DNA of 64,000 bases from Lebetimonas sp. JH292 (GTDB taxonomy: Bacteria; Campylobacterota; Campylobacteria; Campylobacterales; Nautiliaceae), in contig NZ_ATHQ01000001.1 of NCBI RefSeq assembly GCF_000523275.1, positions 319,001-383,000 of the forward strand. Direction: 5' to 3'. Both the position numbers and the translations under genes were made by a program. Below, piece by piece: positions 9,156 through 23,393 of this stretch. Numbering within the stretch: position 1 is the stretch's first letter; the number at the start of each line of letters is the position of its first letter. Under the pieces are notes generated by a model. It had not been told where the DNA came from and made no database searches. It was given only the letters and a program-made list of their open reading frames with translations.

Positions 9156-11594
9156 TTAAGCCTTTGGCGAATATTCGTTTTTTTCTATTTTAAGCGGCTT
9201 ATTTACCTTTTGGTACAGCACCATCGCAAGCCCTAAAATAACCACTGCAAACCAGGCACCCATTCCGGCAAAAATAATATTAATCCATCCGTATCCGTTT
9301 ACCACTTCCTGACCGTAACTGTGAAGTCCCTGAGCAATATAGAAATTTACTCCGAAATATGTCATTAAAATAAAGAAAAAGCTCAAAAAAGCCAATAATG
9401 AAAAAATAAATTCACCTCTGAGTTTTGGCATCATTTTAGCATGAATTATAAGTGCATAAACCACCATTGAAATTAAACTCCATGTTTCTTTCGGATCCCA
9501 ACTCCAATATCTTCCCCAGCTTTCATTTGCCCAAACACCGCCAAGAAATGTTCCGACACTGAGCAAGGCCAAACCTATATATAAAGCGATATAAATGATA
9601 TTATTGAATTCTTTAATTTGTTTTTTTAGTTTGTCTTTATTAACAGCAAACAAAACAAGATTAAGAAGACCCAGCATCGCCCCGACTGCTAAAAATCCGT
9701 AACTGGAGGTAATCACCGCCACATGAACCAAAAGCCAGTATGATTTTAATACCGGGACCAGGTTTGTAATTTGAGGGTCAATATTGTTTAAATGCGCAAC
9801 CATCATAAACATCCCAGCTACAAATAATCCGGCACCAAGTGCAAGCATTGATTTTCTAAAGAAAACAAGCGATGCAAAAGCGGCACCCCATGCAATAAAT
9901 ATAATTGATTCATACGCATCAGACCAGGGGGCATGCCCTGCCACATACCATCTAAGCCCCATATTGAATGTATGAAGCAAAAGAGCCAATGCACCTAAAA
10001 TTACAAAAAAAAGTTCGGTTTTCGGATATTTTTTAAGTCTTAAAACTTCAATAAATCCTAAAATAATAATAATGAGTCCAAGTGTAGAATAAATGCCTAT
10101 AAGCATAGGAAAAATTTGTAAATGATTGTATTTAATTTCCCATTCTATTCTGTTTTTGGAAGGAAGTATATCGGGTGTATATGTTTTTTGAAGTTTATAA
10201 ATATCATCTGCCGCTTTTTTCATTTCATTTATATCAAAAATTTTTATACTGTTTACCAAAGAATTAAATACATTCAAATATGCAGTGGCACTGAAAGGGT
10301 CCATCATACCCTTGTTTACACTTTTTTGAATTTGATAAGGAGAAAACCATGTATTATTCATTTTTTTTGAATCAGGCGTTGGAAAAATTTTAAAAATCTG
10401 AGCAGTGTAAACCATAAAAGAGACATAAACCCTTTCGTTTATTTTTATCCATTCCCTGTCTAACTGTGTTTTTTGAATATCGGGTGTATCAAAAGCCCTA
10501 TTCACCTCTTTTGTAAATTTAAAATCCCCGTTAGGCAAAAAGAAATCGATATAAGGTGCATATTTTCCTTTTAAATGCAGGAGTTTTCTTATTTTAGGAT
10601 GCCCTATATAAATAAGGGGCAGTTTTTGAAAATATTGTGGGTTTGCAAGCATTCCCATAACTATCTGATTATAATCCATTCCCAATAATTTATATTTTTT
10701 TGTAATTTTATGCGCTATATCCAAATCCAACGTATCCATAGGTTCAATTCTGCCGCTTTTTTGCACCAAAATTCTCTCCCATACAGATTCAATAGATTTA
10801 GATTTTTGTATATAAGAATCAATATCAAAAGCATTCGCCGAGTGGGGAAATGTTAAAAATAACAACAATGAAAAAAGACCCCCTGTTTTTAATTTTTTAA
10901 CGGTGATTTGAAATCTGCTTTTTTTATAAAGCATACTTGCTAAAAAGCCTATTGCCATTAACAGATAACCAAAATAAGTCACATACATTCCGGGGTCGTG
11001 ATTGACTGAAAGTATACTTCCGCCTCCGTCCGGGTCATAACTTGCCTGATAAAACCTGTATCCTTTATAAACTAAAATATGATTCATATAAATATGATAA
11101 TGAATTTTTTTATTCCCATCTATTATTGTTACAAAACTGTCATAACTGCTGGGCTGCATACTTCCCGGATAATGTTTTAAAACAAATTTATCAAGCCTTA
11201 CCCTAAAACCCAAATCCTTAATTTCAATATCAGTAGGTCTAGCCCTGTTTTTAATAACGGTTATTTGATTTGCACTTTGCCCGTTTCTTAAATGTAAATT
11301 TCCCTCATATCCGAAATATCTTGTAATTCCTGCACCAAGTAAAATAACAATTACAGAAAGATGAAGAAGGAATATAGGCGTCTTTTTATAAGTTTTATAT
11401 CTGAACATTACCCCTGTTAAATTAATTCCCAAAAGCCACATAATAAGTTCAAACCATTTGGTGCCGTAAACATACTGCCAGGCCTGCAAATCTGTTTTTA
11501 AAAGAGTAGCAGCTCCCATTGCAACAATAAAGATTAAAGAAAGTATTACCGCGAGTTCAATAGAAAAGAAAAAATTATATATTTTTTTTATCAT
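9156..11594 (-). CDS. ccsBA: Fused cytochrome c biogenesis protein CcsBA (ResB-ResC type)
   Basis: An 812-residue membrane protein of the system II cytochrome c synthase, which moves haem across the membrane and attaches it to CxxCH motifs. The N-terminal half has ResB/CcsB-like membrane segments and a large periplasmic domain. The C-terminal half has the CcsA segments with the haem-binding WWD motif (WANESWGRYWSWDPKETWS, about residues 688-706) and flanking histidines (GLRWYVAGHAPW, IAQGLHSYG). Fusion is usual in Campylobacterota. Its start overlaps the upstream thioredoxin stop by 4 bp. It would serve the multihaem NapB, HaoA and tetrahaem cytochrome nearby. Confidence 0.94.
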   Translation of the reverse strand: MIKKIYNFFFSIELAVILSLIFIVAMGAATLLKTDLQAWQYVYGTKWFELIMWLLGINLTGVMFRYKTYKKTPIFLLHLSVIVILLGAGITRYFGYEGNLHLRNGQSANQITVIKNRARPTDIEIKDLGFRVRLDKFVLKHYPGSMQPSSYDSFVTIIDGNKKIHYHIYMNHILVYKGYRFYQASYDPDGGGSILSVNHDPGMYVTYFGYLLMAIGFLASMLYKKSRFQITVKKLKTGGLFSLLLFLTFPHSANAFDIDSYIQKSKSIESVWERILVQKSGRIEPMDTLDLDIAHKITKKYKLLGMDYNQIVMGMLANPQYFQKLPLIYIGHPKIRKLLHLKGKYAPYIDFFLPNGDFKFTKEVNRAFDTPDIQKTQLDREWIKINERVYVSFMVYTAQIFKIFPTPDSKKMNNTWFSPYQIQKSVNKGMMDPFSATAYLNVFNSLVNSIKIFDINEMKKAADDIYKLQKTYTPDILPSKNRIEWEIKYNHLQIFPMLIGIYSTLGLIIIILGFIEVLRLKKYPKTELFFVILGALALLLHTFNMGLRWYVAGHAPWSDAYESIIFIAWGAAFASLVFFRKSMLALGAGLFVAGMFMMVAHLNNIDPQITNLVPVLKSYWLLVHVAVITSSYGFLAVGAMLGLLNLVLFAVNKDKLKKQIKEFNNIIYIALYIGLALLSVGTFLGGVWANESWGRYWSWDPKETWSLISMVVYALIIHAKMMPKLRGEFIFSLLAFLSFFFILMTYFGVNFYIAQGLHSYGQEVVNGYGWINIIFAGMGAWFAVVILGLAMVLYQKVNKPLKIEKNEYSPKA

Positions 11595-12010
11595 TTCCCA
11601 GCCTTATATTTTTGATTTACATCATGAAGGATTTTTAAAAATATCTGGGGTGGTCTCGCACCTATCATTCTATAATAAAGTTCCCCATTTGGTTTAATAA
11701 AAAGTATTGTAGGGGTTGAACCTGTAAAATAATTCTGAACCATCAAAGGCAGATTATCCTGGTCCGCAAGATAAAACACCGGCACAAAATTTTTATTAAT
11801 AAAACCTGCTACTTTATCATCTGTATAAACCTTTGTGGCAAGATATCTGCATGGAGGACAGTTTGTAAGTGATACATCGACCATAATCAGTTTATGCTCT
11901 TGGGAGGCAACATTTTTTGCCGCATTAAAACCCATAGCCCAGTTAACTTTACCGCTCCAATCTATTGCAAAAGCAAAAACAGCAACTATTAAAAACAACC
12001 ATTTTTTCAT
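11591..12010 (-). CDS. Periplasmic thioredoxin-like protein with CPPC motif
   Basis: A 139-residue thioredoxin-fold protein with an N-terminal signal sequence (MKKWLFLIVAVFAFA). The redox centre is CPPC in SLTNCPPCRYLATKV, and the cis-Pro loop lies in FTGSTPTILFI. The gene overlaps ccsBA by 4 bp, so it most likely keeps apocytochrome CxxCH cysteines reduced (the CcmG/ResA role). This is inferred from context, since the motif and length match the SoxW/DUF255-like group rather than classic CcmG. A clear paralogue at 24680-25090 sits next to CcdA. Confidence 0.85.
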   Translation of the reverse strand: MKKWLFLIVAVFAFAIDWSGKVNWAMGFNAAKNVASQEHKLIMVDVSLTNCPPCRYLATKVYTDDKVAGFINKNFVPVFYLADQDNLPLMVQNYFTGSTPTILFIKPNGELYYRMIGARPPQIFLKILHDVNQKYKAGK

Positions 12011-12081: not shown

Positions 12082-12654
12082 TTATTCCGATTTCTCGGAA
12101 GATAAATTTTCTAAAAGATTAGGATGAGCAAAATTAGGCATTGTATAATCGTTATGGCATTTTACACAGCTGACTTTTCCACCGTTTTCTTTAACATTCC
12201 AATAATACATTTTATGAATTTTTTGAATATTATCATCAAGTCCGACAACGTGGTTTTTATCTTTAAGTTCCTCTATTCCTTTATGGCAGTGCAAACACGC
12301 ATTATCATATACATAATGATCCATTTCACAGAAATTTTCTTTAAAATCAACTCTTTTAATAAGCCCTATATGAGCCATTGCATCTCTTGTCCCGCTTATT
12401 CCTTTTGTAATCAAATAAGACATTAAACTTGAATGATCTAAATGGCAATCGGTACAATGATGGGCTGAAAATCCGTGAGGATTGTTTCCTCCGTGAACAC
12501 TGAATTCAAAACTGCTAACCTCCGGTTTCATTTCATGACAGCTTGCACAAAATTGAGGCGTCCCTGTCACATCAACCATTACTGCTGCAAAATACGAAAT
12601 TCCAAGCCCGATAATTGCGCCTATAATCAATGCGCCGAGTGTTGTTTTTTTCAT
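12082..12654 (-). CDS. NapC/NrfH-type tetrahaem cytochrome c, candidate HaoC
   Basis: A 190-residue membrane-anchored quinol dehydrogenase: one N-terminal membrane helix (about residues 6-26) and four CxxCH haem sites with cysteines at 36 (CASCH), 67 (CTDCH), 120 (CLHCH) and 163 (CVKCH). The family passes electrons from menaquinol to periplasmic reductases such as NrfA or HaoA. No nrfA is visible, and Nap here has its own NapGH, so HaoA (21852) is the likely partner; that is inference. Upstream are two 11-bp repeats and an AT-rich -10 like those of haoA. SD AAAGGAAATC. Confidence 0.88.
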   Translation of the reverse strand: MKKTTLGALIIGAIIGLGISYFAAVMVDVTGTPQFCASCHEMKPEVSSFEFSVHGGNNPHGFSAHHCTDCHLDHSSLMSYLITKGISGTRDAMAHIGLIKRVDFKENFCEMDHYVYDNACLHCHKGIEELKDKNHVVGLDDNIQKIHKMYYWNVKENGGKVSCVKCHNDYTMPNFAHPNLLENLSSEKSE

Positions 12655-12690
12655 TGATTTCCTTTTTTTATTGATATTATATATATATTT

Positions 12691-12712
12691 CGTGCTTAAA
12701 AAGTGCTTTTTA
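12691..12712. promoter_or_regulatory. Two 11-bp direct repeats upstream of the tetrahaem cytochrome gene
   Basis: CGTGCTTAAAA at 12691 and AGTGCTTTTTA at 12702 are spaced exactly 11 bp. Read in the direction of the cytochrome gene they are AGCACTTTTT and AGCACGAAAT, followed by a TATATATAAT -10-like box. The same core with the same period is found before haoA (21786) and between the response regulator gene and napA (14955). Candidate binding site for an OmpR-family regulator. Confidence 0.6.
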
Positions 12713-14278
12713 AATTTTTATTACAAAAACCGCCCCGTTATTTGAATTATATGCGTCTAAATTACCGTTAAAATGCTTTGTAACAATAATTTTACTCATA
12801 TAAAGCCCAATCCCCGTTCCCTGGGATTGAAATTTGGTTGTAAAATAAGGTTCAAAAATTTTATCAATTAAATCCTTTCTAATACCTCCTGCATTATCTT
12901 CTATTTCTATTTTTTCTCCTATTTTAATCCAGATTTTTTTATTTTTTATATTTCTTTCATTCAAAACATCGATAGCATTATTAATTATATTCATAATAAC
13001 TTGTAAAAATTCATTTTTGAAGCCTATAATATTTTTTTCTTTTTTTTCAATTAATTCCACATCAATATTGTAATTTTTAAGTCTTCCTTCCAATAAAAAC
13101 AGAACTTCTTTAACAGATTCATTGATATTAAATTCTTTCTTTTCTTTATCTTCTTTAAAAAAGTTCCTGAAATCGTCTATCGTTTTGGACATGTATTCTA
13201 TCTGTTTAATTGCCTTATTTTTAAAATTTTGGATATATTTTTCATCTATTTTATTTTTTTTATATGCTATTTCAATATTTTGAATAAGCAGCGAAAGATG
13301 TGTTAAAGGGTGTCTCCACTGATGCGCTATATTTCCAAGCATCTCTCCCAAAGCAGCAAGTTTGGACTGCTGCATTAAAAGCTGTTCATTCTCTTTTACT
13401 TTTGCCACTTCTTTATCTATTCTTTTATCAAGTTCGTTATAATAATTGTATAAAGGTCTTGAAAAGAATATTCCGAGAGGAACTGCGACAAAAACAGATA
13501 AAATCATCATAACAATTGCCAGTTTTTTGGAGATATCACTTGTTTCCCGGATTAATTTCTTGTTTTGTAAAAAAATAACGTTATATTTGTTATTAAAATT
13601 CAGCACATAAATATCATTACTTATAAACCCCTGGGATTTTTTCATTAAATCTACAACAGGGTATCCGTATATGTCATATATATATTTGACATTTGTAAAA
13701 TCACTGTAATAGATTTTTCCTTTTTTATCTATAACCATAATGTTAAACATATCGTTATATTTTTCAAAAATATTTTTATATTTATAAACAATATTTAAAA
13801 CTTTATTTTTAAGAGGCACCGAAATATTAAAAACAACATTATGATTTTTTATATTTTCTTTTAAAATCAAAGTCTTTAATTTCGGTTTTTGTGATTGATT
13901 TATTAAACACGCTATAGAATTATTTTTTTTACAATAAATATTTTTATTGTTTTGTATCAAAGAAATTTTATATATATTGTCTTCACTTGAAAGAATAAGT
14001 TTAAAAACCCCGAAAAGCAGATTTTCATTAATGTTAAACTCACTTGAAATTAACGGACTTTTTGATATTGCAATAGCCTTATTTACAGCTTTTTGCTTTT
14101 TTGTTTTATATTCTTTTACCAAATTTTTAGCATATAAAATTACATTCTGCTGAAAATTTTCATTTTCAATGTTTGTAAAAAAATATATACTTATGTATAT
14201 AACAACAATAATTATCAAAAAGGCAAATAAAGCAAAGGCTATTGTTAAATCAAACTTAAATTCACTGTTTTTTTTCAA
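12710..14278 (-). CDS. Membrane sensor histidine kinase
   Basis: A 522-residue kinase with membrane helices at about 12-34 and 252-272 enclosing a ~215-residue extracytoplasmic sensor region (probably a Cache-like domain; the ligand is not evident). A coiled linker follows, then HisKA with the phospho-accepting H319 (GNIAHQWRHPL, the form common in Campylobacterota) and an HATPase domain with N-box NNAIDVLN and G-boxes DNAGGI and GTGIGLYMSKI. It overlaps the response regulator gene by 17 bp and lies between the tetrahaem cytochrome and the nap operon. A role in sensing nitrate, nitrite or redox state is inferred from position. Confidence 0.92.
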   Translation of the reverse strand: MKKNSEFKFDLTIAFALFAFLIIIVVIYISIYFFTNIENENFQQNVILYAKNLVKEYKTKKQKAVNKAIAISKSPLISSEFNINENLLFGVFKLILSSEDNIYKISLIQNNKNIYCKKNNSIACLINQSQKPKLKTLILKENIKNHNVVFNISVPLKNKVLNIVYKYKNIFEKYNDMFNIMVIDKKGKIYYSDFTNVKYIYDIYGYPVVDLMKKSQGFISNDIYVLNFNNKYNVIFLQNKKLIRETSDISKKLAIVMMILSVFVAVPLGIFFSRPLYNYYNELDKRIDKEVAKVKENEQLLMQQSKLAALGEMLGNIAHQWRHPLTHLSLLIQNIEIAYKKNKIDEKYIQNFKNKAIKQIEYMSKTIDDFRNFFKEDKEKKEFNINESVKEVLFLLEGRLKNYNIDVELIEKKEKNIIGFKNEFLQVIMNIINNAIDVLNERNIKNKKIWIKIGEKIEIEDNAGGIRKDLIDKIFEPYFTTKFQSQGTGIGLYMSKIIVTKHFNGNLDAYNSNNGAVFVIKI

Positions 14279-14912
14279 TTTTATATCCGCATCCTCTTAC
14301 ATTTTTAATAAAATTTTCTTTTAATTTACTCCTTAATTTTTTAACCTGTGTTCTTAAAGTATTGTCACAAATGGCTTTTTCTTCCCAGACATAATCTTTA
14401 ATTGTTTCGGAATCTACAACATTGTTAATATTTTTAACCAGAATTTCCAAAAAATATTTCTCATTGGGGGTAAGTTCCACTTCTTTATCATTATAAAAAA
14501 GTTTTAATTTTTTTATATCAAATGAATAATTTGCTGTAATTTTTATCCTGTCCGTTTTTTTGAAAACAAGCCTTTTTATTCTCAGTTCAAGCTCTTTTAA
14601 ATCAAAAGGTTTTTTAATATAATCGGCAGCACCGATATTAAAGGCTTTTTCAATATGTTCTACATCTGAATAAGCGGTTATAAAAATCACCGGTGTTGAA
14701 GAAGAATAATTTTTTAATTCTTTATAAAATTCATATCCGTTCATTTCGGGCATATTTATATCCAATAAATATATATCATAATGCTCAGGATAAATCTTTT
14801 CAAGCGCCCTTTTGGGAGTTGAATAATAATCCACTTTATTTCCGCTCATTTCAAAATATTCTTTTATACTCTCACCGATAAATTCATCGTCTTCTACCAA
14901 AAGTATTTTCAT
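14262..14912 (-). CDS. OmpR-family response regulator
   Basis: A 216-residue protein: receiver domain with acidic pocket E7-D8-D9, phospho-accepting D51 (LLDINMPEMNGYEF) and the lysine of YIKKPFDL, then a C-terminal winged-helix DNA-binding domain ending KNVRGCGYKIE. It is divergent from napA. Its own promoter region holds four 11-bp direct repeats (14955-14998). OmpR-type regulators commonly bind tandem 10-11 bp direct repeats as dimers. The arrangement predicts autoregulation and control of nap, haoA and the tetrahaem cytochrome gene. Confidence 0.93.
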   Translation of the reverse strand: MKILLVEDDEFIGESIKEYFEMSGNKVDYYSTPKRALEKIYPEHYDIYLLDINMPEMNGYEFYKELKNYSSSTPVIFITAYSDVEHIEKAFNIGAADYIKKPFDLKELELRIKRLVFKKTDRIKITANYSFDIKKLKLFYNDKEVELTPNEKYFLEILVKNINNVVDSETIKDYVWEEKAICDNTLRTQVKKLRSKLKENFIKNVRGCGYKIEKKQ

Positions 14913-14954: not shown

Positions 14955-14998
14955 AGTGCCTTTTAAGTGCCGTAAATGTGCTTATAAAGTGCCTTAAA
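14955..14998. promoter_or_regulatory. Four tandem 11-bp direct repeats between the response regulator gene and napA
   Basis: AGTGCCTTTTA, AGTGCCGTAAA, TGTGCTTATAA and AGTGCCTTAAA start at 14955, 14966, 14977 and 14988, exactly 11 bp apart. Toward napA they are followed by an AT-rich TTATTATAAA region at 15007-15015. Toward the regulator gene they read GGCACT and end close to a TATGATAAAAT -10-like box. This is the geometry expected for an OmpR-family operator covering a divergent promoter. Confidence 0.65.
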
Positions 14999-15080
14999 AT
15001 TAAATTTATTATAAAAATATGTAACATTTTTGTCAATAAGTTGTATCATAATAGTGTTAAAAAGCGAAAAAGGAGTGCTT

Positions 15081-17874
15081 ATGTCAATGACAAGAAGAGA
15101 TTTTTTAAAAACAACTGCCGCAGTGGCAGCGGCTAGTGCAGCTGGAATTACTGTTCCGGAAGAATTAAAAGCACAGGCCGAAGCAAGTGAAGAAGGATGG
15201 CAATGGGATAAAGCCGTATGCCGTTTCTGTGGAACCGGATGCGGTATTATGGTTGCTACAAAAGGAGGAAAAATCGTTGCTGTAAAAGGTGACCCAGAAG
15301 CTCCGGTAAACAGGGGTATTAACTGTATTAAAGGTTATTTCAACGCAAAAATTATGTATGGTGCAGACAGACTTACCCAGCCGTTATTAAGGCTTGATGA
15401 AAATGGAAATTTCAGCAAAAATGCTCCGTTTAGACCAGTCAGCTGGAAAAGGGCATTTGATGAAATGGAAAAACAGTTTAAAAAATATTACAATGAATTG
15501 GGGCCAACAGGTGTTGCAATATTCGGTTCCGGCCAATATACAATTCAGGAAGGTTATGCGGCTGTAAAATTAGTTAAAGCCGGATGGAGAAGCAACAATA
15601 TCGATCCTAATGCAAGACACTGTATGGCAAGCGCCGTTGTAGGATTTTATCAAACATTTGGAATTGATGAACCAGCCGGTTGTTATGATGATATAGAACT
15701 TACCGACACAGTAATAACCTGGGGTGCGAATATGGCCGAAATGCACCCGATTCTTTGGAGTAGGGTTAGTGATGCAAAATTAAACAATCCTGATAAATAT
15801 AAAGTAGTTAATCTTTCAACTTATAGAAACAGATGTTCAAATCTTGCAGATATGGAAATTATTTTCAGACCAAATACAGACCTCGCAATTATGAATTATA
15901 TCGGAAGGGAAATTATAAAAAGAAATGCCGTAAACTGGGATTTTGTAAAAAAACATACCATCTTTGCAACTGGAACCGTAGATACAGGTTACGGTATGAG
16001 AGAACCAAGTGTAGCTAAAAAACTTGGATATTCAGATAAAGAAATGCAAACAATTAAAAAACAGGCTGCAAAAGAAGTAAGCGAAGAAGAAGCAGTGGCA
16101 TTAAGCGCAATCGGCAAATGGAAAGCCGGAGAAAAAATGGAAATGACTCACAGAAAAGGTCACGCACCGTTTTTCCATTGGCAAATAACTTTTGATGAAT
16201 TTAAAAAAGCGGTTGAACCTTATACACTTGATTATGTAGCAAGCGTTGCAAAAGGCGACCCTGATGAAAGCATTGAAAGTTTTAAAGCAAAACTAAAAAA
16301 ATTAGCTGATTTATATATTAATCCAAACAGAAAAGTTGTATCTTTCTGGACAATGGGATTCAATCAGCATGTAAGAGGTAGCTGGATTAATGAAATAGTT
16401 TATATGGTTCATTTACTTCTTGGAAAGCAATCAGTTCCGGGAAGCGGAGCATTCTCTCTAACAGGTCAGCCAAGTGCTTGTGGAACTGCAAGAGAAGTTG
16501 GAACCTTTGCCCACAGACTTCCGGCAGACTTATTAGTAGCAAATCCAAAACACAGAAAAATTACAGAAAAATTATGGAAAATACCACATGGAACTATTAA
16601 TCCAAAAGTAGGAAGCCATTTTGTAAAAATTATGAGGGATATGGAACAAGGAAAATTAAATGGGCATGGGTTCATGTAAACAACCCTTGGCAAAATACTG
16701 CAAATGCTAATCACTGGTTAAAAATGGCAAGAACCATGGATAACTTTATTGTTGTAAATGAATGTTATCCTGGAGTCAGCGCAAGAGTGGCAGATTTAAT
16801 TTTACCAGTGGCTATGATTTATGAAAAATGGGGAGCATATGGTAATGCTGAAAGAAGAACCCAACACTGGAGACAGCAGGTTGTAGCCCCTGGAAATGCA
16901 ATGACAGATATTTGGACAATGGTAGAATTTTCAAAAAGATTTAAATTAAAAGAAGTATGGTATTGGAAGAAGCTAAAAAAATGGGTTATTCACCTGAAGA
17001 CACATTATATGATGTACTTTATAATAGAGAAGAATATCGCAAAAACTTCCCATGGCCAGATCCTATTGCTAAAAATCCACAAACAGGAAAACTTCATCCA
17101 AACACTGAAGCAGCGGGAGACGGCAGAGAAATTATAGGAAGTGACGGCAAACCGTTTACTGGTTATGGATTCTTTATTCAAAAAGCATTATGGGAAGAAT
17201 ACAGAAAATTTGGTATTGGTCATGGGCATGACCTGGCAGATTTTGATACATATCAAAAAGTAAGAGGTCTAAGATGGCCTGTCGTTAACGGAAAAGAAAC
17301 AAAATGGAGATTTAACACTGAATATGACCCATATGCAAGAAAATTTGCAAAACCAGGTGAAAAATTTGCATTTTACGGACCGCTTTTAAAAACAATTAAA
17401 AGAGGAAATTTGGCTCATCCTGTTAAATCAATGGGTAAAGTTCATTTGGCAAACAAAGCAAAAATATTCTTCAGACCGTTTATGGTTCATCCAGAAGACC
17501 CTAAATATGATAAAGACGGATATAATTTCTGGCTATGTACCGGTAGGGTTCTTGAACACTGGCATACTGGAACTATGACCATGAGGGTTCCGGAATTATA
17601 CAGGGCTATGCCGGAAGCATTATGTTATATGAATCCAAAAGATGCAAAAGCACTCGGATTAAATAGATTTGATTTGGTTGTAATTGAAAGCAGACGTGGA
17701 AAAGTTAAAGCAAGGGTTGAGACAAGAGGCAGAAACAAACCTCCAAGAGGACTTGTAATGGTTCCATGGTTTGATGAAAAAATATTAATCAATAAAGTTT
17801 GTCTTGATGCAACATGTCCTATGAGTAAAGAAACAGATTACAAAAAATCAGCGGTTAAAATTTATAAAGCATAA
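15081..17874 (+). CDS. napA: Periplasmic nitrate reductase catalytic subunit NapA, two frameshifts
   Basis: NapA reduces nitrate to nitrite in the periplasm. The start is the ATG at 15081 with AAAAAGGAG; an earlier in-frame start at 15030 lacks one. The N-terminus is a Tat signal (MTRRDFLKT). The [4Fe-4S] cysteines are C47, C50, C54 and C82, and the molybdenum ligand is C181 in [14 protein letters not shown] missing base in the A4 run at 16652-16655 shifts the frame, and one near 16959 shifts it again. The three frames 15081-16679, 16724-17137 and 16957-17874 together give about 931 residues, normal for epsilonproteobacterial NapA. The lesions look like sequencing errors because the rest of the operon is complete. 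Confidence 0.94.
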
Positions 17875-17883
17875 AGGTAAATT

Positions 17884-18699
17884 TTGGATAGAAGAGGATT
17901 TTTAACACAAATGGCTCAGGCAGCAGCTGCGTCTGCTGTTGCCGGCACTGTTGTCGGAGCTTTTGTAGAAGAAGATAAGGTTAAACCTTTAACTCTTAGA
18001 CCTCCCGGGGCATTAGAAGAGAGAGATTTTATAAAAACATGCATAAGATGCGGATTATGTGTCGAAGCATGTAAAAATAGAGAAAATAAGATGATAATAA
18101 ACGGAGAGGAAATTGATACCTTAAAATTGGCAAGCCCCGGAGATAATGCTCCAATCGGTACACCTTTTTTTATAGCAAGAACGGGGCCTTGTTTTATGTG
18201 CGATGATATTCCGTGTATGTATGCGTGTCCAACAGGTGCTTTAACACCTGAAATGTGCAAAAACGATAAAGGTGAAGTTGCAATCGATTATGCCAAAATG
18301 GGAGTTGCTGTAATAGACCCGAGCAGCTGTATTGCTTTTTGGGGTCTTCAATGTACAGCATGTTACAGAGCGTGCCCGGAAATAGATAAAGCTATAACTA
18401 TTGAATGGAAACAAAATAAAAGAACAGGAAAACACGCTTACAGAATTCCTGTTGTTCACGAAGAATATTGCACAGGCTGCGGAATGTGCGAAAGAGCATG
18501 TGTTACCGAAAAAGCAGCCATTAAAATATTCCCAAGAGAAGTTTTTCTTGGAAAAGCGGGAGACAGATACGTTAAAGGATGGAGCAAAAAAGACCAGCAA
18601 AGGGTTAAAAACGCATCAACAAAAACAACAACAAAAACACCTTGGAGTAAAAAAAGCCCGTTAAATAACTTAAATCAAGGTATAAAATGGAATCAGTAA
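17884..18699 (+). CDS. napG: Ferredoxin-type quinol dehydrogenase component NapG
   Basis: A 271-residue Fe-S protein with a twin-arginine signal right at the start (DRRGFLTQMAQ), using a TTG start codon 9 bp after napA. Four [4Fe-4S] motifs follow: CIRCGLCVEAC, CFMCDDIPCMYACP, CIAFWGLQCTACYRACP and CTGCGMCERAC. With NapH it forms the menaquinol dehydrogenase that feeds NapB in organisms lacking NapC. The last 13 bp overlap the napH start. Confidence 0.94.
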   Translation: MDRRGFLTQMAQAAAASAVAGTVVGAFVEEDKVKPLTLRPPGALEERDFIKTCIRCGLCVEACKNRENKMIINGEEIDTLKLASPGDNAPIGTPFFIARTGPCFMCDDIPCMYACPTGALTPEMCKNDKGEVAIDYAKMGVAVIDPSSCIAFWGLQCTACYRACPEIDKAITIEWKQNKRTGKHAYRIPVVHEEYCTGCGMCERACVTEKAAIKIFPREVFLGKAGDRYVKGWSKKDQQRVKNASTKTTTKTPWSKKSPLNNLNQGIKWNQ

Positions 18700-19527
18700 T
18701 TAAAAACAGATATTTAATTTTAAGAAGGATATCCCAGCTTACAATTTTATTTTTATATTTTGGCGCTAATGCGTGGGGATGGAAAATACTCGTTGGAAAT
18801 TTAAGTTTATCTAAAATTTTTGGCAAAATTCCTTTAACGGACCCGTATGCATTTTTGCAAATGCTTTTTGCTGGTGCTGTAATAAGTACCGATATGATTG
18901 TAGGAGTTATTATTATTGCTGTTTTTTATACTCTTATCGGAGGACGTGCGTTTTGTTCCTGGGTTTGCCCTGTAAATATGATTACAGATTTGGCCGCATG
19001 GCTTAGAAGAAAAACACATCATGAAAAAGACAATTTAATAAGTGCTATGAAGATTAAAAATTTCAGATACTGGTTTGCCGGTATTTTACTTAATAATTTC
19101 AGCTATAAGCGGCGCAGCCGCATTTGAATTTATAAGTCCTATCGGTATTTTTACAAGAGGTGTTGCATTTTCACTAGGATTTGGATGGGTATGGCTGATA
19201 GCTATATTTTTATTCGATGCTTTTGTTTTAAAAAACGGGTGGTGCGGACATGTTTGCCCGTTAGGGGCCACTTATTCAATAATAGGGGCTAAAAGTTTAA
19301 TCAGGGTAAAACATAATAAAGACAATTGCACAAATTGCGGTAACTGTCTGATGATTTGCCCAGAGCCTCAGGTTTTAGCACCTATAATCGGGAAAAAAAG
19401 CGATTTTATATCAGGAATTGAGTGTTCAAACTGCGGAAGATGTATTGAAGTGTGCGAAGATAATGCACTAAAATTTTCTATTAGAAATTACATAAAAGGA
19501 GAAAAAAATGAAAAAGCTAATAATTAG
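18687..19527 (+). CDS. napH: Membrane quinol dehydrogenase component NapH, one frameshift
   Basis: A polytopic membrane Fe-S protein, about 279 residues after repair. The first frame (18687-19127) carries membrane helices and CSWVCPVN. An extra A near 19092 breaks it; removing it continues FAGILL into IISAISGAAAF. The second frame has CGHVCPLGA, more helices and two C-terminal clusters (CTNCGNCLMICPEP, CSNCGRCIEVCEDN). The paired CxxxCP motifs are the NapH hallmark. The gene overlaps napG by 13 bp and napB by 20 bp, so the operon is tightly coupled. A sequencing error is the likely cause of the shift. Confidence 0.92.
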
Positions 19528-20481: not shown

Positions 20482-21424
20482 ATGAAAAAATTAACAATTT
20501 TATTTTTGATAATTATAAATCTGTTTGCTTATGAAAAAATCATATACCCAAGTTATATTTCAAAACTTACATTTAATAAAAAATATTTAATCGCCGGACT
20601 TGAAAACGGTGAAATTATTATAAAAAATTTTAAAACACTTAAAAATATAAATACAATAATCCTACCAAAAATACACGATTTTATGGATGAACTGATTCCC
20701 ATGCCGATATATTCACTCGATATATCGCCTGAAAATAATAATTTATTAATTCTTGCCCAGGGGGAAAATGCATTTAAAATAATCTATTTATATAATTTTT
20801 AAAACAAAAAATTATACAAAAATATTTTCTACAAAAGAAAATTTAATAGAAGCAAAATATATTTCAAAAAACAAGATTTTAATAGGTACACTTGCTGATG
20901 AGGCAATTTTATTTGATTTGAAATTAAAAAAAGAAATTTATCACAAACAGATAGGAAATTATGTTTTTTCCCTTTTTGTTTTAAATAATAAAAATCTTGC
21001 CGCATTCGGAGATGAAAGCGGTATTGTAACAATTATAGATATAAAAAATGGAAAAACGGTTAAAACCGTAAAAGGCTTTAACAAAGGGAAAACATTAACT
21101 CTCGATTTTAAAAAATATTTAATTTTAAATGCCAGTGAGGACAGAAAAGTAAGTATTTATAATTTAAAATATGATAATTTTACAGTTGAAAACAACGTAA
21201 AATTTTTACCTTATGCAGCAGGTATTTCACCAAATTTAAAATATTATGCAATTCAATATAATGAAAAAAACAATATTGCGATATTTGATATGAATAATAA
21301 ACTTATACAAACATTAAAAGGACACACAATGGCACTAAACGGGTTAAAATTTATTAAAAATAATGAAATTATTAGTTTTTCACCGGCAGAAATTATAATT
21401 TGGAAATTAAAGGAGAACAAATGA
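20482..21424 (+). CDS. napL: NapL, WD-repeat-like periplasmic protein, one frameshift
   Basis: NapL is an accessory protein found in epsilonproteobacterial nap operons; its role is poorly known. A signal peptide (MKKLTILFLIIINLFA) starts the first frame, 20482-20802. One extra T in the T5 run at 20796-20800 breaks it; removing it gives NFKTKNYTKIFSTKENLIEA and runs into 20918-21424. The repaired protein has about 313 residues with repeated beta-propeller-like blades (ILIGTLADEAILFDLK, LNASEDRKVSIYNLK, TLKGHTMALNGLKFI). The stop overlaps the napD start by 4 bp. Probable sequencing error. Confidence 0.87.
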
Positions 21425-21785: not shown

Positions 21786-21812
21786 GGCACTTTTTGGACA
21801 CTTTTTTATAAT
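21786..21812 (+). promoter_or_regulatory. haoA promoter: two 11-bp direct repeats and a -10 box
   Basis: GGCACTTTTTG at 21786 and GACACTTTTTT at 21797 are spaced 11 bp and lead straight into TATAAT at 21807-21812. No good -35 is seen; the repeats occupy that place, as expected for a promoter needing an activator. The core is the reverse complement of the AGTGCC repeats before napA and has the same orientation as those before the tetrahaem cytochrome gene. Transcription would start near 21819. Confidence 0.65.
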
Positions 21813-21851
21813 ACAATATTAAAGAGTAAAAATAAACTCAAAGGAGACAAA

Positions 21852-23393
21852 ATGAAAAAGGCACTTTCAGCCGGAGTTAGTATTGCAGCACTAACAAGTG
21901 TAGCATTTGCTGCAAACAGTTTGGATTCAAACCCAAATTATGTAAAACTTAAAAATTTCAAACCAAATCCTGCGGTTACAAATGAGCAGTGTTTAATGTG
22001 TCATAAAGCTCAAGATCCTGGTATTGTAGCTGACTGGCAACATTCAAAACATGCAAAAGCAGGTGTCGGATGTGTGCAGTGTCACGTTGTACCAAAAGAT
22101 TATCCAACTGCATTTAAAGCACACCCTATGCAGGGAAAAAATTGGACAGTTCAAATTGCGGTTTCATCCGTAACATGTGCAAAATGTCACGCAAAAGAAG
22201 TTACAGAATACCTTAATTCAGGACATGCAAGAGGTGCAGCACAATGGTTGGCATCAAATATGGGTAAACACGGCTTTTTAATGAGCAAACTTGCGTATAA
22301 CTATGAAAATATGAAAGGAAAACATCCTTCATTAAACGGTTACAGTGCAAAAAAAATGGCTGCGGGAATCAGAAAAGACAATTCTGTATTCGCTTCAAAC
22401 CAAAACAATCCAAGACAGGCAGATTTAGGCGTTGCAAATATTTGTGTACAATGCCACGGAACAACTGTAAAATTAGATTCTCAAGGCAGACCGGATGCGG
22501 CAACATGGCCAAGTGACGGTATAGCCACACTTTATCCAGATGGAGGCGTTGGAAACTGTTTAGCATGCCACAGCAGACATAAATTCTCAGCTGCCGAAGC
22601 AAGACAGCCAGCAGCATGTTCAAACTGTCACTTAGGGCCGGACCATCCGGATAAAGAAATTTTTGAATCAAGTGTTCACGGGCATATTTTTGATACAAAT
22701 GAAAAAGATTACAATTTTGAAACAGGAAAACAAATTCCAGGTAAAACCCTTAGAGCCGCAACATGTTTTACATGTCATATGAGTGGAATTAACGGACTTA
22801 AAGCAACTCACAATGTTTCACTTAGACTAAAATGGAATTTATGGGCACCAAAAAGTTTCTTAAGAACAAAAGGTGCTGAAACAGCCGGATGGGCGTTTTG
22901 GAGTCATGGCGGAAAAATCATACCTGGAAAAACTATATTAAGAGGTAATCCAAAAGCAGGTAATCCACAGGGACCTGAAGCTGCAAGAAGCCAGATGAAA
23001 CAAGTTTGTGCGGCTTGTCATGAAGCTACATTTGTAAACAACTATTTCCAAAGAGTTGACGCTCAGGTAAAAAATTATAATAATTACTTTAATGCGGCAA
23101 ATAAAATGCTAAAAGAGCTAAAAGCTAAAGGTTTAATAAAATCTGACGTATGGAGTGATCCGTTCTTTAAATTATATTATTATCTATGGCATCATGAAGG
23201 TAGAAGAATGAGACAAGGTGCAGCAATGGGAAGCCCGGATTATGCTCACTGGCATGGTGTTTTCCAAGTAATGCAAGATATAAGAGAAATGCAAGACATT
23301 TACAACTACAGAATGAAAATGCTTAAAAAATACGGCAATGCCAAAAAAGTTCTTGAAAACGAACCGCCAATGCCTGTTGTTACTCACGAATAA
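21852..23393 (+). CDS. haoA: Octahaem hydroxylamine oxidoreductase-like protein (epsilon-HAO)
   Basis: A 513-residue periplasmic cytochrome with a cleavable signal (residues 1-20) and exactly eight CxxCH sites, with cysteines at 47, 74, 109, 198, 236, 256, 305 and 386. SD AAAGGAG. In ammonia oxidisers HAO oxidises hydroxylamine. Campylobacterota versions are believed to act in reverse, reducing nitrite to hydroxylamine or ammonium, as proposed for Nautilia profundicola together with Nap and a hybrid-cluster protein. Whether the crosslinking tyrosine of oxidising HAOs is absent needs an alignment. It follows napD by 86 bp but has its own promoter, and ends in a hairpin terminator. Confidence 0.93.
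   Translation: MKKALSAGVSIAALTSVAFAANSLDSNPNYVKLKNFKPNPAVTNEQCLMCHKAQDPGIVADWQHSKHAKAGVGCVQCHVVPKDYPTAFKAHPMQGKNWTVQIAVSSVTCAKCHAKEVTEYLNSGHARGAAQWLASNMGKHGFLMSKLAYNYENMKGKHPSLNGYSAKKMAAGIRKDNSVFASNQNNPRQADLGVANICVQCHGTTVKLDSQGRPDAATWPSDGIATLYPDGGVGNCLACHSRHKFSAAEARQPAACSNCHLGPDHPDKEIFESSVHGHIFDTNEKDYNFETGKQIPGKTLRAATCFTCHMSGINGLKATHNVSLRLKWNLWAPKSFLRTKGAETAGWAFWSHGGKIIPGKTILRGNPKAGNPQGPEAARSQMKQVCAACHEATFVNNYFQRVDAQVKNYNNYFNAANKMLKELKAKGLIKSDVWSDPFFKLYYYLWHHEGRRMRQGAAMGSPDYAHWHGVFQVMQDIREMQDIYNYRMKMLKKYGNAKKVLENEPPMPVVTHE

Follow-up and report, generated by a model that had tools for sequence, protein, structure and literature searches.

The response regulator of OmpR/PhoB type encoded beside napA very probably binds a tandem repeat, AGTGCY-N5-AGTGCY, at three places in the window (the whole stretch of 64,000 nt analysed here, from Lebetimonas sp. 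JH292, genome G000), and would thereby activate nap, cycB (with the cytochrome-maturation genes downstream of it) and haoA. napA, cycB and haoA constitute the hydroxylamine route of nitrate ammonification, in which haoA is assigned the step from nitrite to hydroxylamine by the reverse-HURM model. The window holds three sites, and the clearest promoter architecture is found at cycB and haoA, both of which were missed by the original prediction. The features concerned, in window coordinates, are:

14955..14993, plus strand: site A, upstream of napA, with half-sites AGTGCC at 14955, AGTGCC at 14966, TGTGCT at 14977 and AGTGCC at 14988
15044..15049, plus strand: predicted -10 box of napA, TATCAT, 50 bp after the repeats, in a conserved alignment block
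15081..17874, plus strand: napA, first gene of the nap operon, its reading frame interrupted in assembly GCF_000523275.1
15081-21765, plus strand: nap operon (napA, G, H, B, F, L, D)
21786..21802, minus strand: site C, AGTGTCCAAAAAGTGCC, in the -35 position of haoA (on the plus strand)
21812..21817, plus strand: predicted -10 box of haoA, TACAAT, 10 bp from site C (composite match G000:C1:340786-340817)
21852..23393, plus strand: haoA, octaheme HAO-like cytochrome (PF13447; ortholog primer match in G008)
14262..14912, minus strand: response regulator, OmpR/PhoB type (receiver PF00072, winged helix PF00486), proposed binder of sites A, B and C
12710..14278, minus strand: sensor histidine kinase (HATPase_c), with a double-CACHE-like periplasmic sensor in the structural model
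12691..12707, plus strand: site B, CGTGCTTAAAAAGTGCT, in the -35 position of cycB (on the minus strand)
12676..12681, minus strand: predicted -10 box of cycB, TATAAT, 10 bp from the GCAC of site B (composite match G000:C1:331676-331707)
12082..12654, minus strand: cycB, NapC/NrfH-family tetraheme cytochrome (PF03264; NAMH_0559 by primer match in G008)
11591-12010, minus strand: thioredoxin-like gene, downstream of cycB
9156-11594, minus strand: ccsBA-like gene, downstream of cycB

The cycB, thioredoxin-like and ccsBA-like genes probably form one operon. Within the nap operon, napA (15081-17874), napH (18687-19527) and napL (20482-21424) are each split over different frames in the assembly, reflecting either sequencing error or decay; unlike the split napA of the window, that of nearly all relatives is open over 930-980 codons. 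An Rfam search of the window returned no RNA element.

Direct reading of the sequence bears out the original prediction of four direct repeats in exact 11-bp steps (cores at 14955, 14966, 14977 and 14988), and the neighbour at 14262 is, as had been claimed, of OmpR type (PF00072 at 105.5 bits and PF00486 at 58.7 bits, both over cut-off). Direct repeats with an 11-bp step are likewise the kind of site that such a regulator would be expected to bind, and the motif follows the regulator clade across 399 genomes (see below). In a repeat search site A also appears as a direct repeat of 21 nt, its copies lying 22 bp apart, and a pattern scan of G000 for GTGCY-N6-GTGCY-N6-GTGCY gave two overlapping matches in the 1.64-Mb genome, both inside site A, against none for the reversed pattern. 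Four copies are peculiar to G000 and three to its congener G001, with two copies in most relatives.

Comparison of the 300 bp before napA in 20 genomes (19 of the family plus G049 of a sister family) recovered the AGTGCY-N5-AGTGCY pair in every one, so that the prediction came through the comparison with related genomes on which it had been staked. Same-strand WGTGYY pairs stood 11 bp apart 20 times in these stretches, and no other distance occurred more than twice; the sites of G015 and G019 are one mismatch from the strict pattern, and that of G004 is inverted relative to the other napA sites. Alignment resolves three conserved blocks, namely the repeat, a TATYAT -10 box and the ribosome site, with a distance from repeat to -10 box of 50 bp in 14 genomes, 49 in four and 39 in G049, the last being shorter by about one helical turn.

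The repeat at cycB and haoA is oriented opposite to the gene and occupies the -35 position, sites B and C each being one mismatch from the first search pattern in a scan of the window. Wherever the stretch was read, the site precedes cycB (20 of 20 promoters) and haoA (12 of 12), and GCAC lies 10 bp from the -10 box in all of them: the box is TATAAT in 19 cycB promoters and TAGAAT in one; for hao it is TANAAT (11 promoters) or, at the second copy in G006, TATACT. For haoA of the window the automatic best -10 was another hexamer 5 bp off; TACAAT stands at 10 bp. Tandem half-sites thus appear to replace the -35 element at a fixed distance from the -10 box, the arrangement of class II promoters. 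hao keeps the site even where it is far from nap (G005, G008), and nap, cycB/napC and haoA all bear it within single genomes (G000, G008 and others). The second hao gene of G006 (L094:1113-2698) is frame-broken and carries a separate copy of the motif, with TATACT following after 10 bp.

The mechanism that we propose is as follows. The kinase encoded behind the regulator would phosphorylate it, and the phosphorylated regulator would bind AGTGCY-N5-AGTGCY as head-to-tail dimers. At cycB and haoA, the two half-sites would stand in for the -35 element 10 bp before the -10 box, in a PhoB-like class II manner; at napA, a site about 50 bp before the -10 box and in the opposite orientation would act in a class I-like manner, with half-sites that should be enough for two dimers in G000. 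We infer binding and phosphorylation as well as activation at all three promoters, the last from the PhoB- and PceP-like placement of the sites; because the napA site is inverted relative to those of cycB and haoA, its mode of action is less sure.

That inverted and more upstream position leaves some room for the regulator to bind but repress napA, or to act with opposite sign at napA and at the other two promoters, which we consider unlikely. In Nautilia profundicola, napA, haoA and cycB/napC rise together on nitrate (4.6-, 8.5- and 7.1-fold by qPCR; Hanson et al. 2013, PMC3701875), and exact matches of the published primers identify G008 as strain AmH of this species, where all three genes carry the site. 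The fixed distance at napA (49-50 bp, 39 in one genome) keeps the site on one helical face, as for an activator, and involves no overlap with the -10 box. In G004, moreover, the napA promoter is itself of class II form (GGCACTTTTTTGGCAC, 10 bp, TATAAT), and this activating position connects the napA site with activation of the gene. We therefore retain activation at all three promoters.

Counting against the proposal are two further genes that were higher on nitrate in the same study, neither significantly: har (11.7-fold; PMC3701875) and NAMH_1302, encoding a 4Fe-4S protein (4.6-fold; PMC3701875). No site was found at har in six genomes checked, and har/hcp was rejected as a direct target for this reason, while orthologs of NAMH_1302 have a site in G005 and G008 only (napA-like in G008) and none in G000, G001, G002 and G007. 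A 96-aa ORF without Pfam match (L133:2315-2683, G000:C1:1008315-1008683) is conserved, being present in 19 of the 21 genomes searched. Its site is of class II form in G000 and G001, weaker in G005 and G008 and further upstream in G032; the remaining relatives lack the site, which makes the ORF a lineage-specific candidate target only. In the deep-branching G004, additional copies of the motif precede cycB, a YfdX-like gene and a rotamase gene (L144, L145, L146). Single sites occur at other genes in G003, G004, G006 and G010, and some of these are probably due to chance.

As for the proteins, residues D8, D9, D51 and K101 of the regulator are invariant in an alignment of 20 homologs, so that its phosphoacceptor aspartate and acidic pocket are conserved. 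The sensor of the kinase is predicted as a mixed alpha/beta domain (pLDDT 83.5) which resembles double-CACHE structures in Foldseek, and Pfam gave no match to a helical-bundle (PilJ/NarX-type) periplasmic sensor. Periplasmic C116 and C124 are invariant even though sensors outside the genus are only 31-41% identical, and a disulfide or redox switch is conceivable; our guess is that the signal is nitrate, one of its reduction products, or the periplasmic redox state. The pair, which we take to be NAMH_0557/0558 from the tags of napA (0556) and cycB (0559), is not mentioned in the literature searched.

A different transcription factor could bind the repeats, the regulator being adjacent by chance: OmpR-type regulators are many per genome (20 matches in G000), and the neighbouring one is a predicted binder. 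We likewise consider this unlikely, on account of the distribution of motif and regulator. Orthologs of the regulator occur in 19 of 21 family genomes (relatives being 71-90% identical), the two genomes lacking one being 57% and 70% complete, and 18 of these 19 have napA at most a few kb away, the exception being G012 with separate contigs. Among 27 Campylobacterota genomes of other families without the ortholog, two of which were excluded for too little upstream DNA, the site before napA was found in none of the 25 counted; two of them (G044, G047) encode a regulator ~50% identical, and there the motif precedes a different cytochrome. G049 has the site before napA and the regulator ortholog on another contig.

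Combining repeat and -10 box into one pattern gave matches, among 60 genomes, in all 23 whose regulator is at least 48% identical, and in G016, where the contig breaks off within the kinase gene, with none in the 36 remaining genomes and none in the reversed control. Across 399 genomes of the order, the composite motif was found in 43 of 46 with a regulator homolog (E <= 1e-52) vs. 11 of 353 without, and outside the family of the window in 24 of 27 vs. 10 of 351, counts whose statistics overstate independence since the genomes are related, and whose co-occurrence p-values should not be read literally, as the pattern was also drawn partly from the same family. The three genomes with a homolog and no motif, and the eleven with a match and no homolog, count against the proposal; of the latter, some genomes are incomplete and some matches look like coding coincidences. 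Matches of the AGCACTATYCCRGCACC type, which recur across several genomes, resemble conserved coding sequence and were set aside.

The motif also separates close from distant relatives of the regulator: among 80 loci, it was present at 27 of the 34 whose identity reaches 44% and at none of the 46 below. The recognition helix, where extractable, reads NT[LI]RTx[VIM][KR]K[LI]R in the former group, and NPTIRAEI or ANIRVQI in most of the latter. The joint occurrence of motif and clade extends over at least seven families and varied gene contexts, even where sites and regulator lie on different contigs, which argues against an unrelated factor and for the neighbouring regulator as the binder. In distant families, the site is found upstream of a cytochrome that has 12 CXXCH motifs and is a distant relative of ExtM, mostly at 10 bp from the -10 box. 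At L168, L169, L172, L176, L180 and L182, in Arcobacter- and Sulfurospirillum-like genomes, homologs of the pair lie beside this 12-CXXCH, distantly ExtM-like cytochrome and thioredoxin-like genes, with the same motif.

The original prediction had also made site A an operator of its own regulator, and here it did not hold as a conserved feature. In G000 the array lies 43 bp from the start of the regulator gene, with TAAAAT 9 bp past the last GCAC on that strand; this -10 spacing is, however, not kept in G001, G008 and G009 (in G009 the site abuts the ribosome site of the regulator), and 2.5-3 kb of other genes separate regulator and napA in eleven genomes (G002, G003, G007, G010, G013, G014, G015, G017, G018, G019, G020), where the site stays with napA. 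Since it is the distance to napA that is fixed and that to the regulator that varies, the operator belongs to napA and conserved autoregulation was rejected as a general feature; that the array serves mainly to control the two-component genes is thus very improbable, while control of the regulator through site A is possible in G000. In several of the eleven genomes, the gene before the regulator has a TOBE-like end as in molybdate transport genes (judged by eye). A molybdenum riboswitch (RF01055, 71-78 bits) was found in the gap between regulator and napA at four of five such loci searched, all of one genus (L097:7702-7820, L099:13962-14079, L101:8240-8358, L103:9833-9952), between napA and divergent genes leading into the regulator-kinase pair, which brings molybdenum supply together with nitrate control in a single island.

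Finally, the half-sites are short and the DNA is A+T-rich, yet a chance origin of the repeats was rejected as next to impossible, given a triple unique in its genome, a pair present in all 20 genomes, 18 genomes with the strict pattern before napA against 0.002 expected from dinucleotide shuffles, and the distribution of the composite motif.

For Nautiliales of hydrothermal vents, which convert nitrate to ammonium via nap and a reverse hydroxylamine module, the pathway gains a candidate regulator, and this candidate, three exactly placed promoters and a predictive motif make its control directly testable. The motif is also specific enough for regulon annotation in draft genomes. More tentatively, and with rather less than even confidence, we suggest that the clade acts as a switch of periplasmic cytochrome respiration throughout the Campylobacterota, with a fixed DNA code (AGTGCY-N5-AGTGCY, 10 bp to the -10 box) and targets that changed between lineages: in Arcobacter- and Sulfurospirillum-like genomes the 12-heme cytochrome with its distant likeness to ExtM, and in Nautiliales nap-cycB-hao. 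It would be the counterpart of NarXL/NarQP in the phylum, sensing a nitrogen oxide or the periplasmic redox state via a double-CACHE-like domain that carries the two invariant cysteines. If one code does serve a different cytochrome in other families, this would be a case of a regulator whose DNA code was retained as its pathway switched.

Among known systems, PhoB binds the pho box as head-to-tail half-sites in an 11-bp register, replacing the -35 element ~10 bp before the -10 box. The half-site register and the -35 placement at cycB and haoA are alike; the half-site sequence differs, the targets are respiratory rather than phosphate-related, and the regulator scores 100 bits with the PhoB equivalog model against a cut-off of 296.2. 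NarXL/NarQP of Enterobacteria and NssABC of Wolinella likewise control nap-type nitrate respiration, but NarL and NarP are LuxR-type and the Nss proteins belong to another regulator class; the output domain here is Trans_reg_C, with no LuxR-type domain reported by Pfam, and so not of the NarL/NarP kind. Orthologs of NarP and FNR are absent from the phylum according to a review (PMC6682613). RacRS of Campylobacter jejuni, whose site at ggt lies ~80 bp upstream of the transcription start (PMC4456614), is similar in its two-component control of respiration-linked genes and differs in its known targets, which are ggt, aspA and others rather than nap or hao (PMC4456614, PMC6682613), in a comparison made at the level of targets and site position.

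Closest in setting is PceP/PceS (TCS2) of tetrachloroethene respiration in Sulfurospirillum, with direct repeats either overlapping the -35 element or 50 bp further upstream (PMC7755780). PceP is likewise an OmpR-family regulator of anaerobic respiration in Campylobacterota with the same two site placements, and its further-upstream repeats lie, like site A, between the two-component operon and a divergent gene. In contrast, its half-site is CTATW with N17 between bound copies, its genes are others, and it acts on its own operon, a trait not conserved here; our sites are AGTGCY-N5-AGTGCY in 11-bp steps rather than CTATW-N17-CTATW, and the likeness is one of placement only. The literature searched contained no description of the motif, the regulon or a regulator of the nitrate-ammonification pathway. 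Motif and regulon appear to be new, in an architecture which resembles those of PhoB and PceP and within a kind of system that is known.
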